Source: Neobacillus dielmonensis (GTDB lineage: Bacteria > Bacillota > Bacilli > Bacillales > Cytobacillaceae). Taken from it: 64,000 nt of DNA. Each line of letters begins with the position of its first letter. Position 1 is the stretch's first letter. The stretch covers positions 1 to 64,000 of the forward strand of contig NZ_HG942051.1 of NCBI RefSeq assembly GCF_000612665.1, in the 5' to 3' direction. Shown here in pieces: positions 7,002 to 26,117 of this stretch. The notes under the pieces are model-generated. The model saw only the letters and a list, made by a program, of their open reading frames with translations, was not told the origin of the DNA and searched no databases. A program made the position numbers and the translations under genes.

Positions 7002-7584
7002 GTTTCTTCTCTCCCTCGATTTCAAATAAAAAGTTTTTTATGATTTGTTTTCCATCAGGAGTCCCAATCGACTCGGGATGGAACTGCAGGCCATACACAG
7101 GATATTGGACATGTTTGACTGCCATTATTTCTTGGTCGTCCAGCGAATAGGCGATTGCTGTCAATTGCTTTGGCAGAGTACTGCTTTCAATAATTAAAGA
7201 ATGATAACGCATAACCTCAAGCGGTGAGGTTAAATGGTTAAAAACTCCAGTACCATTATGATGAATCAGGGAAGTTTTCCCATGCTTAACTTGAGATGCC
7301 CGCTTGATTTCCCCGCCAAATGCTGCTCCAATCGCCTGATGGCCTAGACAAATTCCCAAAATTGGAATTTCTTTAAAAAAGGTTTGGATTAATTCAATAC
7401 AGATACCGGCATCCTCCGGTCTTCCTGGTCCAGGGGACAGGATAATGGCTGTCGGATGCAAATTTCTTATACTATCTATAGTCAGTTGATTGTTTCGATA
7501 AACAGCGGCGGTTTCCCCTAACTCTCCTAAATACTGATAAAGATTAAATGTAAATGAATCAAAATTATCTATGAGCAGAATCAC
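6973..7584 (-). CDS. trpG: Anthranilate synthase glutamine amidotransferase component
   Basis: 203 residues, class I glutamine amidotransferase. The catalytic Cys is in GICLGHQAIG, and the His/Glu pair in LQFHPES. It supplies ammonia to TrpE. In B. subtilis the equivalent subunit is encoded in the folate operon and shared with PabB, whereas here it sits inside the trp operon, as in the B. cereus group. Whether it also serves folate synthesis cannot be read from this window. It overlaps trpE by 4 bp. Confidence 0.95.
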   Translation of the reverse strand: MILLIDNFDSFTFNLYQYLGELGETAAVYRNNQLTIDSIRNLHPTAIILSPGPGRPEDAGICIELIQTFFKEIPILGICLGHQAIGAAFGGEIKRASQVKHGKTSLIHHNGTGVFNHLTSPLEVMRYHSLIIESSTLPKQLTAIAYSLDDQEIMAVKHVQYPVYGLQFHPESIGTPDGKQIIKNFLFEIEGEKKHEKLLTPIS

Positions 7585-8969
7585 TTCGGCACCTCCAAAA
7601 ACGATCTCAATTTACTCAAGGTTTCTTGATACTCCGATTCAGGAACAGAATCGTAAACGATCCCGGCACCTGCCTGGATATAAGCATGATGATCTTTTAA
7701 AATCATAGTTCGGATGGCTAAGGCAAAATCCATGTTTCCATTTGCTGATAGATAGCCAATGGCACCTGAGTAAAGTCCACGTTTGGATTTTTCAAGGGAA
7801 TTAATAATCTCCATTGCCCTGACTTTCGGAGCACCAGAAACGGTTCCTGCCGGCAAACAGGCTGCTAGGGCGTCAAGAGAGGTTTTATCGGACTTCAGCC
7901 TGCTGCTAACTTCTGATACAATGTGCATCACATATCGGTATTTTTCTATTGCCATATATTTTTCTACCTGAACGGATCCGAACTCACTGACCTTTCCAAG
8001 ATCATTTCTTCCTAGATCCACCAGCATCTTATGTTCTGCCAGTTCCTTTTCATCCTGTAACAATTCCTGTTCGATCGCCTGATCTTCTGCACTCGTTGTT
8101 CCTCTTCGTTTTGTCCCGGCTATGGGGTTGGCAATTACCGTTGTTCCTCTCGTTTTAATGAGGCTTTCTGGTGATGAACCAATCACGGTATAAGCTTCAA
8201 ATTCGATATAAAACATATAGGGGGTTGGATTATTTGACCTATGACTTCGATATAAAGCTAATGGAGATCCGGTGAAGCCCGCCTTCATCCTTTGCGATAA
8301 TACCACCTGAAAAATATCACCTGCCAAAATATGTTCTTTTGCAATTTTGACATTATCTATAAACGTTTCCTTGGTCATTTCTGATTGGAACTCCGAAAAT
8401 TCGTATGATTGCTCCTCTTGATCCTCAAAGGGCTGCTTAAGTTCAAACAAAAGCTGGTTTAGCCTATTTTGAATGCTTGCATCACTACTGTCTGGTAAAA
8501 GCGGGATACCAAACAGGAACACCTTTTCCTCCAAATGGTCAAATACGACCATTTCTTCATAGAACATGAGATGAACGTCAGGCATCGATAATCCATTCGG
8601 AAATTCCTCTCCAATCTGTTCATATTGCCGAATAATGTCATAACCCACATATCCAATTGCCCCACCTGTGAATGGAAATGGAATTTCATCGGTTTTCAAA
8701 TCGGGTATTAGACTCTTCACTATTTCAAGCGGATTGCCAGTTAAACTCTGTTTCTGTCCATTTCTAAAAATGAGCTGATTTCTGTCTCCCTGGGCAATTA
8801 ATTCAAACGCTGGATCTGCGCCTATAAAGGAATACCTCCCCGAGTCATTATATTTATGGGAACTTTCTAATAAAAACTTTTTCTTGCCGCTGACTTTTTG
8901 CAAAATGGAAATCGGCGTTAATACATCACCGCTAATCTCTTTAAAAAAATACCCTGTCTTTGTCTTCAT
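7581..8969 (-). CDS. trpE: Anthranilate synthase component I
   Basis: 462 residues from the ATG at 8969, which has AAAGGAG a few bases upstream; the longer frame to 9116 runs into the T-box leader and is not used. It converts chorismate to anthranilate. The N-terminal LLES element associated with tryptophan feedback inhibition is present, and the chorismate-binding motifs (GDIFQVVLSQR, PIAGTKRRG, LPAGTVSGAPKVRA) are intact. First gene of the trp operon. Confidence 0.96.
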   Translation of the reverse strand: MKTKTGYFFKEISGDVLTPISILQKVSGKKKFLLESSHKYNDSGRYSFIGADPAFELIAQGDRNQLIFRNGQKQSLTGNPLEIVKSLIPDLKTDEIPFPFTGGAIGYVGYDIIRQYEQIGEEFPNGLSMPDVHLMFYEEMVVFDHLEEKVFLFGIPLLPDSSDASIQNRLNQLLFELKQPFEDQEEQSYEFSEFQSEMTKETFIDNVKIAKEHILAGDIFQVVLSQRMKAGFTGSPLALYRSHRSNNPTPYMFYIEFEAYTVIGSSPESLIKTRGTTVIANPIAGTKRRGTTSAEDQAIEQELLQDEKELAEHKMLVDLGRNDLGKVSEFGSVQVEKYMAIEKYRYVMHIVSEVSSRLKSDKTSLDALAACLPAGTVSGAPKVRAMEIINSLEKSKRGLYSGAIGYLSANGNMDFALAIRTMILKDHHAYIQAGAGIVYDSVPESEYQETLSKLRSFLEVPK

Positions 8970-8989
8970 ACAGCCACTCCTTTCGAAAT

Positions 8990-9262
8990 AAAAAAATCGT
9001 CCTCTACATGCCCAGATATTTCTAGGCATATAGAGGACGATTTTAAACGTGGTGCCACCTCTGTTCGAAGCAGTTATTCCTGCTTCCTTTTTCAGATACT
9101 GAACAAATACGATCAATATCCTATCCTTTTAACGGCGGAACTCCGTGTATCCCTACTAACGTTCAGGATACCTCTCACAAGCCCATTCCACAATTCCGTT
9201 CATATCGGGCTCTCACCTGTCCCCGATTCTCTGTGAAGAACTAAAAATGTGTACTCTTCTTG
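8990..9262 (-). promoter_or_regulatory. T-box riboswitch 2 (proximal), Trp specifier
   Basis: Second of two tandem tRNA-sensing leaders before trpE. The T-box core (AGGTGGCACCACG on the transcript) lies at 9049-9062 and the terminator hairpin at 8994-9044 (TCGTCCTCTA/TAGAGGACGA plus U-run). Stem I ends with GTGGAA-UGG-GC, placing a Trp specifier codon opposite plus-strand 9183-9185. Uncharged tRNA-Trp would stabilise the antiterminator and switch trp on. Confidence 0.9.
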
Positions 9263-9299
9263 TTCAACGATTTTTCATGATTATTTATGGAAAAATAAA

Positions 9300-9583
9300 A
9301 AAGGGTCCTCCATCCTCAAAAAGGACGGAAGACCCGTGGTGCCACCTTCATTAGCTAAATCAATAGCTCACTTTACCGATATCGAGCAAATGCTTAATAT
9401 CTGTCTCATGTAACGATGAGAATTCGCCAAAGCCTACTAATCCCGATTGGATGGTTCGGTTTGGAAGCTCAGAAGTCCATTCACTATTTCATCAACACTG
9501 ATTTGCACCAACCATCAGCTCTCTGAAGAATCTAAAATAGTTACTACTCTTCATCATTGCCATACTTTAATTACGTTTTATTG
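9300..9583 (-). promoter_or_regulatory. T-box riboswitch 1 (distal), Trp specifier
   Basis: First leader element after the promoter. Stem I has the classic AGAGAGCTGATGG and GGTGCAAATCAG loops. The specifier reads GAAUGGAC, with UGG opposite plus-strand 9477-9479. The T-box core AAGGTGGCACCACG lies at 9335-9348 and a terminator (GGGTC...GACCC plus U-run) at 9303-9335. Together with the proximal copy this forms a tandem T-box array. Confidence 0.92.
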
Positions 9584-11137: not shown

Positions 11138-11211
11138 GCGGGTGTGGTTTAATGGTAGAATTTCAGCTTCCCAAGCTGACGGCGGGGGTTCGATTCCCCT
11201 CACCCGCTCCA
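11138..11211 (+). tRNA. tRNA-Gly (anticodon CCC)
   Basis: Acceptor GCGGGTG pairs with CACCCGC, and CCA is encoded. The anticodon arm TCAGC-TTCCCAA-GCTGA gives anticodon CCC, which reads GGG. The T arm is GGGGGTTCGATTCCCCT. It is the less common Gly isoacceptor, paired with the Ser gene just downstream. Confidence 0.93.
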
Positions 11212-11220
11212 TAAATTTGT

Positions 11221-11312
11221 GGAGGAGTACCCAAGTGGTTATAAGGGGGCGCACTCGAAATGCGTTAGGGCGGGCAACCGTCGCGTGAGTTCGAATCTCA
11301 CCTTCTCCGCCA
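11221..11312 (+). tRNA. tRNA-Ser (anticodon CGA)
   Basis: Class II tRNA with a long variable arm. Acceptor GGAGGAG pairs with CTTCTCC, and CCA is encoded. The anticodon arm GCGCA-CTCGAAA-TGCGT gives CGA, which reads UCG. It lies 9 bp after tRNA-Gly and is probably co-transcribed. Confidence 0.93.
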
Positions 11313-23320: not shown

Positions 23321-23559
23321 TCTTAGGCTCCCCCCTTGGGATTTTTAACTTCTTTCTTTTAATGTACGTAAAGAACTGCTAATAGTTTCATAAATTCCTT
23401 TATATTCTTATGCTTAGTTTTTTTATACTCCAATAATTTCTCCCCCAATAATATTCATTAAAAACTATGTAGAATTATGAAGAAAAATGGAAAAATTTTT
23501 AACAAAAACTACACAAAAAAACTATTTTCTTTTTCAATTTTTTCTTGTATGATACTTTA

Positions 23560-23779
23560 GGTGACTATTAATTTACGTAATACTTTGGAGGTTTACAACT
23601 CTGTAATGTAATGCCGCTAAATCCAAAATAAAATAGGGAAGGCAAATGGTGCGCCACCAGTAAATCTGGTTCTAGTGGGTTCGATTCCCACCCCGAAATT
23701 TTTTTTAACTTTAAAAAATTTCGTGGGTGGGCCGTTTCTCTTTATGTGGGATGGTATGCCCCAAATCGGAGGGATATTC
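23560..23779 (+). ncRNA. Structured leader with tRNA T-arm mimic before a GNAT gene
   Basis: About 220 nt between a likely -10 (TATGAT at 23548-23553) and the acetyltransferase ATG. It contains TGGTG-CGC-CACCA (23647-23659), ACCAG-TAAAT-CTGGT (overlapping it), GTGGG-TTCGATT-CCCAC (a textbook T-arm, about 23675-23691), and a long hairpin in which CCCACCC and GAAATTTTTT pair with AAAAAATTTC and GGGTGGG (23687-23731). The hairpins share bases, so they exclude one another. No matching 5' acceptor strand exists, so it is not a complete tRNA. A GGAGG at 23587-23591 precedes tiny ORFs ATG-TAA (23606) and a 6-codon ORF (23611-23631). Looks like a cis-regulatory RNA; I do not recognise the family. Confidence 0.5.
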
Positions 23780-24340
23780 ATGCTCAAGAAACGTGATCTA
23801 TATGATAGCCGCGAATTGTACGAACTAATGACGCATCCAGATGTCTTCCCTTTTGTACGTCAAAAAGCTTATTCTTATGAGGAATTTATCTTTATCACTA
23901 AGCAGACGATCGAAGCAGAAGAACAAGGACAGTTAATTTCTCGGACCATTCTTGATGAGTGGGGTACACCAATTGGCACTATCAGTTTATTTGATATTAT
24001 CGATAATGCAGGATTCTTAGGAACCTGGCTCGGAAAGTCATATCATGGAAAAGGGTATAATCAAGCAGCAAAAGCGGCATTTTTCCAAGAACTTTTTTAC
24101 GAAATTGGTATCGAAACGGTGTTTATGAGGATTCGTAAAGAAAATATCCGTTCAATAAAAGCGGCAGAAAAATTGCCATATGTCATTAAGGCCAATGAAA
24201 CTAGAAAAACCCTTTACGAGCAACTAAATGCAAATGGAGACATTTACGATTTATATGAAATCCCTAAAGACCTGTATACCTTCCATCTGCAGTGGAGCAC
24301 TCCTGAAAGTGATACAGAGTCACATCGTTTAGAAGCATAG
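23780..24340 (+). CDS. GNAT family N-acetyltransferase
   Basis: 186 residues from the ATG at 23780, six bases after GGAGGG; the longer frame begins inside the structured leader. The RimJ/RimL-type GNAT fold is seen in WGTPIGTISLFDI, the acetyl-CoA loop (LGKSYHGKGYNQAA), and IGIETVFMRIRKENIRSIKAAEKL. It transfers acetyl from acetyl-CoA to an amine; the substrate is unknown. Transcribed alone, behind the unusual leader, with its own terminator. Confidence 0.88.
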   Translation: MLKKRDLYDSRELYELMTHPDVFPFVRQKAYSYEEFIFITKQTIEAEEQGQLISRTILDEWGTPIGTISLFDIIDNAGFLGTWLGKSYHGKGYNQAAKAAFFQELFYEIGIETVFMRIRKENIRSIKAAEKLPYVIKANETRKTLYEQLNANGDIYDLYEIPKDLYTFHLQWSTPESDTESHRLEA

Positions 24341-24355
24341 ATTTATATATACCTG

Positions 24356-24394
24356 CAAAAAAGCAATCGGTTATGAAAACCCGATTGCTTTTTA
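24356..24394. terminator. Bidirectional terminator
   Basis: AAAAAGCAATCGG and CCGATTGCTTTTT around a short loop, between convergent genes. Confidence 0.85.
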
Positions 24395-25613: not shown

Positions 25614-25856
25614 ATGCAGACTGTAATAAACATTTTCAGCTTGAAAATTAACAGCGTATCTAACAATGGGTCTGTCAACATCGGAGAAGCACTTCATAAT
25701 GCTCATACCGCTAACTCGAAATCTCAGGGACAAAATACATCTTATGGAGACTTTGCCCCGCCAACTGCAGCCATGGAAAATGCCTTTATAGATCCGGATC
25801 TCAATGATATGGGAGATATCGCCAATCCGTCCAATGTTTTTTCTAATCCGATATAA
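25614..25856 (+). CDS. GerPA/GerPF-family spore germination protein
   Basis: 80 residues. It has the GerPA/PF pattern: an N-terminal NIFSLKINSVSNNGSVNIGEALHNAHTANSK, Asn- and Ser-rich, with NxGSVNIG, and a C-terminal DPDLNDMGDIANPS. GerP proteins sit in the spore coat and help germinants reach their receptors. First gene of a five-gene row behind a sigma-K promoter. AAAGGATG precedes the ATG. Confidence 0.8.
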   Translation: MQTVINIFSLKINSVSNNGSVNIGEALHNAHTANSKSQGQNTSYGDFAPPTAAMENAFIDPDLNDMGDIANPSNVFSNPI

Positions 25857-25874
25857 AAGGACTGAAATAAAAAT

Positions 25875-26117
25875 ATGCCTTTTCAAATAAATATTTTTAA
25901 CTTTAAAAATAATGCCATCAATAATAACGGAAATATTGATTTCGGCCCGATTGTGCACAACTCCCATACTTCTAACTCTAAATTAGTTGGAACCAATGCA
26001 GCATTTGGTGATTTATCACCAGCAACCTCTTATCATGCAAATGGCTATGTAGACTTCGATGTAACAGACCAAGATCAAATTGCCAACCCATCTGCACCAG
26101 TATCAAATCAATTTTAA
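25875..26117 (+). CDS. GerPA/GerPF-family spore germination protein, second copy
   Basis: 80 residues, a clear paralogue of the gene 18 bp upstream (NIFNFKNNAINNNGNIDFGPIVHNSHTSNSK, C-terminal DQIANPSAPVSNQF). The pair probably arose by tandem duplication. Spore coat role inferred from the family and from the shared sigma-K promoter. Confidence 0.8.
   Translation: MPFQINIFNFKNNAINNNGNIDFGPIVHNSHTSNSKLVGTNAAFGDLSPATSYHANGYVDFDVTDQDQIANPSAPVSNQF

Follow-up and report, generated by a model that had tools for sequence, protein, structure and literature searches.

Architecture of the leader and its gene

The window, i.e. the whole analysed stretch of 64,000 nucleotides of Neobacillus dielmonensis DNA, carries on its + strand a gene for a GNAT acetyltransferase of 186 aa (23780..24340) and, in front of it, an RNA leader with a tRNA-like part. 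The protein belongs to the GNAT superfamily, with a PF13302 match above the cut-off (4.2e-15) and a GNAT fold, RimL/SpeG-like, in its AlphaFold2 model (pLDDT 91, from 45 sequences, residues 176-186 being of low confidence). Its best structural matches include FdhC, RimL, SpeG, MccE and AAC(6'), which fall within about 2 Z units, and as regards the substrate, fold and sequence leave these five undivided. No RNA-binding extension was seen in the model. Behind the gene a hairpin followed by a run of T (24360..24393, +), read by eye and absent from the terminator scan output, is a likely terminator, so GNAT is perhaps a one-gene transcript. Further downstream (25614-26117, +) lie two tandem, similar ORFs of 80 aa which presumably resemble spore-germination proteins of the GerP type.

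The leader proper occupies 23636-23773, with all its parts on the + strand, and runs from a tRNA-like cloverleaf through an A/T-rich hairpin to an expression platform of four strands that ends at the Shine-Dalgarno sequence (SD) of the GNAT gene. The cloverleaf is made up of an acceptor stub of 3 bp, a D arm, a third arm without anticodon, a variable loop of 5 nt and a perfect T arm, and its spacing, as read from the sequence, is the canonical one of class I tRNAs. The acceptor stub (helix 1) is formed at tRNA spacing by GGG (23636..23638) and its partner CCC (23692-23694). It is followed by the linker AA (23639..23640), two bases corresponding to tRNA positions 8-9, and by the D-arm-like hairpin GGC-AAATGGTGC-GCC, which has the GG of a D loop (23641..23655). 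After the D arm come one base and then an arm of 4-5 bp at the position of the anticodon arm; in the window this third arm is ACCAG-TAAAT-CTGGT (23656..23670), and among leaders its loop varies in sequence and length and holds no anticodon. The variable loop TTCTA (23670..23674), 5 nt as in class I tRNAs, has a first T that may pair with A23656, and it leads into the T arm GTGGG-TTCGATT-CCCAC (23675..23691). Even with 2 mismatches allowed, this T-arm word occurs at no other place in the window, and 100 shuffles yielded no match.

A preliminary description of this DNA had reported a structured leader with a mimic of a tRNA arm, namely a perfect T-arm hairpin outside any complete tRNA. All the sequence elements that it named are present, and a folding energy of -52.1 kcal/mol was computed for 23620-23780 (161 nt; z = -2.74), a value as low as which none of 200 shuffles came. 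The T arm itself stands as described, but the idea of a lone arm does not, since D arm, third arm, variable loop and acceptor stub are there as well. A functional tRNA was considered and rejected: ARAGORN calls none, the acceptor has 3 bp rather than 7 bp, and the third arm is of variable length.

Four strands make up the platform. Strand 1, CCCACCCC (23687..23694), comprises the T-arm 3' strand and the acceptor 3' strand, and its alternative partner is strand 2, GTGGGTGGG (23723..23731), which reads GAGGGTGG in 157 of 203 unique leaders. The two are brought together by the A/T-rich hairpin GAAATTTTTT/AAAAAATTTC (23695..23722), whose loop tolerates inserts, the spacing between strands 1 and 2 ranging from 15 to 80 nt across leaders. 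Strand 3, TGCCCCA (23757..23763), elsewhere often CTGCCCTC or CACCCTC, has as its partner either strand 2 or the SD, GGAGGG (23768..23773), which is strand 4 and lies 6 nt 5' of the start codon. The long hairpin CCCACCCC-GAAATTTTTT / AAAAAATTTC-G-T-GGGTGGG covers 23687-23731; its one-base bulge, T in the window, is A in 62 of 71 leaders and U, C or G in 3 each. Since the T-arm 3' strand also serves as the 5' side of this hairpin, the T-arm fold and the long hairpin are mutually exclusive, just as the preliminary description had proposed, and the two short stems that it held to share CCAG are likewise present as alternatives (UGGUG/CACCA and ACCAG/CUGGU, with CCA(G) in common).

Upstream of these elements, TATGAT (23548..23553, +), read by eye and absent from the consensus promoter scan output, is probably the -10 box of a promoter that serves the leader itself, and GTATGATA-like boxes were seen, by eye and uncounted, upstream of many of 71 non-redundant leaders. 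A GGAGG (23587-23591) and a minimal ORF ATG-TAA (23606-23611) are both there, as first noted, but neither recurs upstream of the leaders of relatives, judged by eye, which leaves the suggested control by translational coupling to a mini-ORF unsupported.

Conservation, covariation and linkage to the GNAT gene

Of the 61 genus genomes searched with the DNA sequence, 57 gave a strong match, with 86-95% identity outside the source genome, and a covariance model, R1, was made from 20 of these leaders. R1 gave strong rows (E<=2.4e-23) in 93 of the 101 family genomes and, with rows counted at E<=1.2e-12, matched 158 of the 199 genomes from the order. Among 299 genomes of the class 22 had a match at E<1e-20, 18 of them within the order and the other 4 in a single further family; there were 13 further matches at E 3.7e-5 to 9.3e-4, and the eight of these that were inspected all overlap tRNA genes. 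Elements in front of other genes were looked for and rejected, as the secondary hits of R1 (13-31 bits), where inspected, fall on tRNA genes or on the opposite strand of the leader hairpin. When named GTDB genomes were scanned for the exact motif, at least 119 loci came up, and the matches listed include the genera Neobacillus, Cytobacillus, Priestia, Oceanobacillus, Halobacillus, Virgibacillus, Parageobacillus and Psychrobacillus, as well as a 'Bacillus subtilis' strain, L195, which may be misnamed. The exact core motif had no occurrence in viral_contigs, and a phage origin was rejected on this ground.

Comparison of loci shows that the cloverleaf is conserved. From 102 rows we kept 97 strong loci (92 fetched by R1 and 5 by DNA search); of the rows discarded, 4 lay on the reverse strand and 1 was a tRNA. 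Among the 97, 90 have the exact core GGGAAGGCAAWUGGUG, and the sole departures are one-base inserts in the remaining 7 (L163, L164, L166, L168 and L172-L174), 4 of which have the extra base in the D loop and 3 in the AA linker. Both linker columns are A in all 97, with AAA in 3 of them, and in 71/71 leaders of a set picked by a motif that contains AA; the T arm is GGUUCGAUUCC in 97/97. For the larger sets, 276 core-motif loci were collected, three of them without a GNAT gene immediately after the leader (2 truncated where the locus ends and 1 relic, L315). The other 273 gave 212 unique leaders after removal of 61 duplicates, 203 of which could be parsed into four strands (9 could not), and clustering at 85% identity left 71. 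The core motif that defines the sets of 212 and 71 omits the 7 strong loci with an inserted base, and in both sets the motif columns are therefore invariant by construction.

The link to the GNAT gene is close. In all 97 strong loci the leader ends, counted from the end of the model, 17-67 nt before the start of a GNAT gene whose product is 44-100% identical to that of the window, so that homologous leaders stand before orthologous genes throughout. Within the family, leader and GNAT occur together in 93 genomes and are both absent from the same 8, with no exception; within the order, 158 genomes have both, 38 have neither, 3 have GNAT only (G180, G222, G298) and none has the leader only. At E<=10 R1 found no match in the loci of these three leaderless GNATs, nor in that of a second GNAT copy in G331 (L318, about 1502). 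The latter is 80% identical to the GNAT of the window and has a good SD, which indicates that the enzyme can occur independently of the switch. G223 has three leader copies, one of which (L315 1135-1244, strand -) has an SD and no GNAT downstream, and is probably a relic or an orphan leader. As to operon context, neighbouring genes vary, the commonest upstream gene being present in 51 of 115 loci.

In the 71 leaders 99.4% of the base-pair cells of the cloverleaf and A/T hairpin are paired and both-side changes occur in 15 of 26 pairs, as against a shuffle mean of 5.5 (0/500 as high as 15) and 5-8 in slid controls, in an alignment that was fitted to the model's own structure and is thus biased in favour of the model. 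Helices 3, 4 and 5 carry the covariation; both-side changes affect 4/5 pairs of the third arm, 2/5 of the T arm and 9/10 of the A/T hairpin. Helix 1 is GC at all 3 pairs in 71/71, so that it yields no covariation evidence for the acceptor stub, and helix 2, likewise conserved, varies on one side only. The long hairpin taken alone is 88.5% paired and has no excess covariation (107/500 shuffles reach its value), because strands 1 and 2 hardly vary. Single loci show concerted changes: in L234 (Oceanobacillus oncorhynchi) the T-arm 5' strand, strand 1 and strand 2 have changed together, to a T arm GCGGG/CCCGC and a strand 2 GAGGGCGGG, with both folds kept, and in L164 and L168 GGGG in both strand 2 and the SD goes with CCCC in strand 3. 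Of 10 leaders whose T-arm strand is CCUAC, the hairpin is followed by UAGG or GUAG in 7 but not in the other 3. With a conserved, covarying structure in front of orthologous genes, the leader qualifies as a cis-regulatory RNA in the general sense.

Relation to known RNAs

In accordance with the earlier impression that the leader belongs to no known riboswitch family, no family of Rfam 15 reaches its gathering score on the leader of the window. A search of 23540-23790 at E<=10 gave 7 weak rows, all below gathering; the best two, a 17-nt tmRNA T arm (E 0.002) and the microRNA-type hairpin mir-3938 (E 0.006), are far below it. At E<=0.1 the sole rows inside the leaders of 20 diverse loci were tmRNA T arms, in 5 loci, and the weak rows other than these are chance-like hairpins. 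In the loci of the order we also observed Rfam S414, a Staphylococcus sRNA, above gathering (62.2 bits) at L120 187-360, strand -, and a weaker match to it, below threshold, in L141. The preliminary description had named three outcomes that would speak against it, i.e. assignment to an Rfam element, lack of conservation upstream of orthologues, and a decayed tRNA or att site without covariation; none of them occurred. A survey of 2017 reportedly contains 224 structured-RNA candidates, and an earlier mention of the leader there or in supplements is possible; the portions of the literature that were covered, including parts of the surveys PMC11109978, PMC8632094, PMC6429828 and PMC2864571, contain no such element. 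On sequence comparison and modelling the tRNA-like leader is real, deeply conserved and apparently undescribed, with a well supported cloverleaf and a plausible translational switch.

By mechanism, the nearest system appears from sequence and predicted structure to be the yjdF (azaaromatic) riboswitch, RF01764, which by the tests made is a different family. RF01764 had no match in 23540-23790 (E<=10), in 20 diverse leader loci (E<=0.1) or in the source genome (E<=0.01), and R1 had none in 4 yjdF loci (E<=10). According to the part of PMC9142559 drawn on here, yjdF RNAs are Firmicute 5' leaders with a tRNA-like four-way junction, a D-loop GG and a T loop, an elbow of D loop and T loop, and A bases between P1 and P2, and their tRNA-like fold, when held by azaaromatics, turns translation on. 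The four-way junction, the D-loop GG, the T loop and the A bases have their like in the new leader, for which the ON sense would be the same, and whose secondary structure and loop sequences would fit a yjdF-type elbow. The new leader differs in having a canonical tRNA T arm and a 5-nt variable loop, and its OFF state is a predicted relay of four strands by way of the A/T hairpin, whereas P4 of yjdF pairs with the SD directly (same part of PMC9142559). It stands before GNAT in 97/97 strong loci, whereas RF01764 usually precedes yjdF homologues, and in the order it is by far the commoner element (158/199 against 4/61 genomes). Three of the four genomes with yjdF RNAs (L323-L326), namely G191, G208 and G210, also have the new leader, at another place.

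The T-box (RF00230) is, like the new element, a Firmicute leader RNA tied to tRNA, and strand 2, GAGGGUGG, has what we take to be a loose resemblance to a T-box sequence. The suggestion that the leader senses tRNA in the manner of a T-box found no sign in its favour, since the leader is itself the tRNA-like part, in cis, and RF00230 has no match there. Elsewhere in the window two tandem T-boxes were detected (9030-9276 and 9318-9566, strand -), upstream of a trpE-like gene (7581-9116, -) that is followed by trpG- and trpD-like ORFs, names given by eye.

Among tRNAs the likeness is to tRNA-Gly(UCC/CCC), in the D loop AAUGGU and the T arm GUGGGUUCGAUUCCCA; the leader differs from it by the 3-bp acceptor and by having neither CCA nor anticodon. 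Under R1 this tRNA scores 19-31 bits, the best in the inspected clusters that hold it, while leaders score 58-140 bits. In other clusters, all picked by R1 matches, tRNAs for Glu, Asn, Lys and Trp reach 27-30 bits, and so the score is weak evidence of kinship with tRNA-Gly; that the leader descended from a tRNA-Gly gene is a guess from sequence likeness. The window has a tRNA-Gly(CCC) of its own beside a tRNA-Ser(CGA) (11138-11312, +). Another tRNA-like RNA of a bacillus with a non-translational role is tRNAOther of Bacillus cereus, which the part of PMC3399842 consulted describes as a predicted pseudo-tRNA gene flanking a genomic island and not, as here, an mRNA leader.

A proposed translational switch and its alternatives

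Taking these results together we consider it fairly probable that the leader controls the translation of a single GNAT gene in cis, as a switch with a tRNA-like domain at its core, which would make it an orphan riboswitch or RNA sensor. How it would act in cells, which fold is ON and what kind of signal it would answer to, we infer as follows. During transcription the 5' part would fold first, as the tRNA-like cloverleaf. A signal that holds the cloverleaf, at a first guess a small molecule in the junction or the elbow, would keep CCCACCCC locked in the T arm and acceptor stub; strand 2 (GAGGGUGG) could then pair with strand 3 (CUGCCCUC), the SD would be free and GNAT would be made. Without the signal strand 2 would invade CCCACCCC, forming the long hairpin at the cost of the cloverleaf, and strand 3, thus released, would pair with the SD and prevent translation.

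Computation predicts a difference in SD exposure between the two folds. For 199 of the 212 unique leaders the mean probability that the SD is unpaired is 0.58 with the cloverleaf enforced and 0.21 with the long hairpin, while in controls of the same leaders with a shuffled linker (the stretch between strand 2 and SD) the values are 0.39 and 0.37 and the difference is gone. For 65 of the 71 leaders the figures are 0.55 and 0.18, with 0.35 and 0.36 for shuffled linkers (5 shuffles per leader in this set); the 13 and 6 leaders omitted were unparsed or unpairable. Exposure gains above 0.2 occur in 66% of leaders and in 13% of shuffled ones, the reverse effect in 0% and 14%, and a Mann-Whitney test of SD exposure gives p 8e-21, with the 5 shuffles of one leader counted as independent controls. 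SD placement is rough in 5/71 leaders, which have an unusual start codon inferred by tblastn. The leader of the window has 0.74 with the cloverleaf and 0.38 with the long hairpin, at energies of -44.0 and -48.0, respectively. When the RNA is folded up to the end of the A/T-hairpin 5' strand, the T arm has P>0.5 in 68/71 leaders, and the full-length RNA is predicted to retain it in 8/71. Such behaviour in the models is that of a switch which works cotranscriptionally, where the fold made first would need trapping to stay ON. Secondary-structure energies favour OFF by about 8 kcal/mol, so that a strong trap or kinetics would be needed. At single loci, pairing of strands 2 and 3 exceeds that with shuffled linkers (p<=0.05) in 60% of 203 leaders and pairing of strand 3 with the SD in only 18%. 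The 48 loci with a variant strand 2 score on average only slightly better with their own linkers (16.2) than with swapped ones (14.8), many doing worse, and in the window the longest contiguous helix of strands 2 and 3 is 4 bp.

It is possible, if on balance doubtful, that the leader represents a new riboswitch class in which a tRNA mimic in cis senses an attack on tRNA or translation (by a small molecule with affinity for tRNA-like elbows or junctions, for example) and GNAT inactivates the attacker or repairs its effect. The mimic would then perhaps derive from tRNA-Gly, its anticodon deleted and its acceptor shortened to 3 bp. A different role for the mimic, rather unlikely in our estimate, is that of a binding site by which GNAT itself or a tRNA-binding protein, e.g. 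a tRNA-modifying enzyme, sets the switch, and GNAT would then act on tRNA or aminoacyl-tRNA. ThrRS of E. coli, which binds its own leader, is a precedent for autogenous control; some GNATs acetylate aminoacyl-tRNA, and MccE acetylates aminoacyl-nucleotides. The close one-to-one link of leader and GNAT agrees with such control, as do the occurrence of MccE in the list of weak sequence matches of GNAT and in that of its fold matches and the top R1 score of tRNA-Gly(UCC/CCC) in the inspected clusters holding it. However, GNAT lacks the leader in three genomes of the order and in one second copy, the fold search singles out neither MccE nor tRNA enzymes, and the protein has no visible RNA-binding extension.

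That the element senses no signal and is a plain translation enhancer attracting ribosomes, or a processing site of RNase P or RNase Z, we hold to be improbable: translation in vitro increased 2- to 6.3-fold when tRNAs stood in cis ahead of an SD, according to the part of PMC9142559 drawn on, but the long hairpin, strand 3 and the linker-dependent exposure of the SD would be left unexplained, and a 3-bp acceptor stub would probably be a poor substrate for either enzyme. Membership of the leader in the yjdF family, as a diverged branch, could draw on the shared four-way junction, the putative D-loop/T-loop elbow, the A bases between P1 and P2 and translation being predicted ON, as in yjdF, in the tRNA-like fold (same part of PMC9142559), but it is very improbable given that neither model matches the other element, that both elements occur at separate places in three genomes and that the OFF pairing differs. 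A coding extension or upstream peptide, for which the GNAT frame is open back to 23675 in the window, is hardly credible where 57/71 leaders have in-frame stops between core and start, lengths fall in all three phases, and stems covary while loops vary. The idea of a decayed tRNA, attachment site or integration scar, finally, has in its favour that, outside the family, tRNA genes are the sequences closest to the leader; we give it practically no weight, since in our view it is refuted by conservation and covariation, i.e. presence in 158/199 genomes of the order, position before the same gene in 97/97 loci and compensatory changes, and the exact core motif is absent from viral_contigs.

It is unusual for an RNA so conserved, present in most sampled genomes of a well-studied order, to have no Rfam 15 family at threshold here. 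As a translational switch the leader would add a second instance, to all appearance independent, of a tRNA fold that switches a gene, with a four-strand mechanism that is directly testable. If it does sense attacks on tRNA or translation, it would be a decoy tRNA used as bait and kept nearly invariant across an order. Its ligand, once found, could reveal a common stress or toxin of bacilli and the job of the conserved GNAT.
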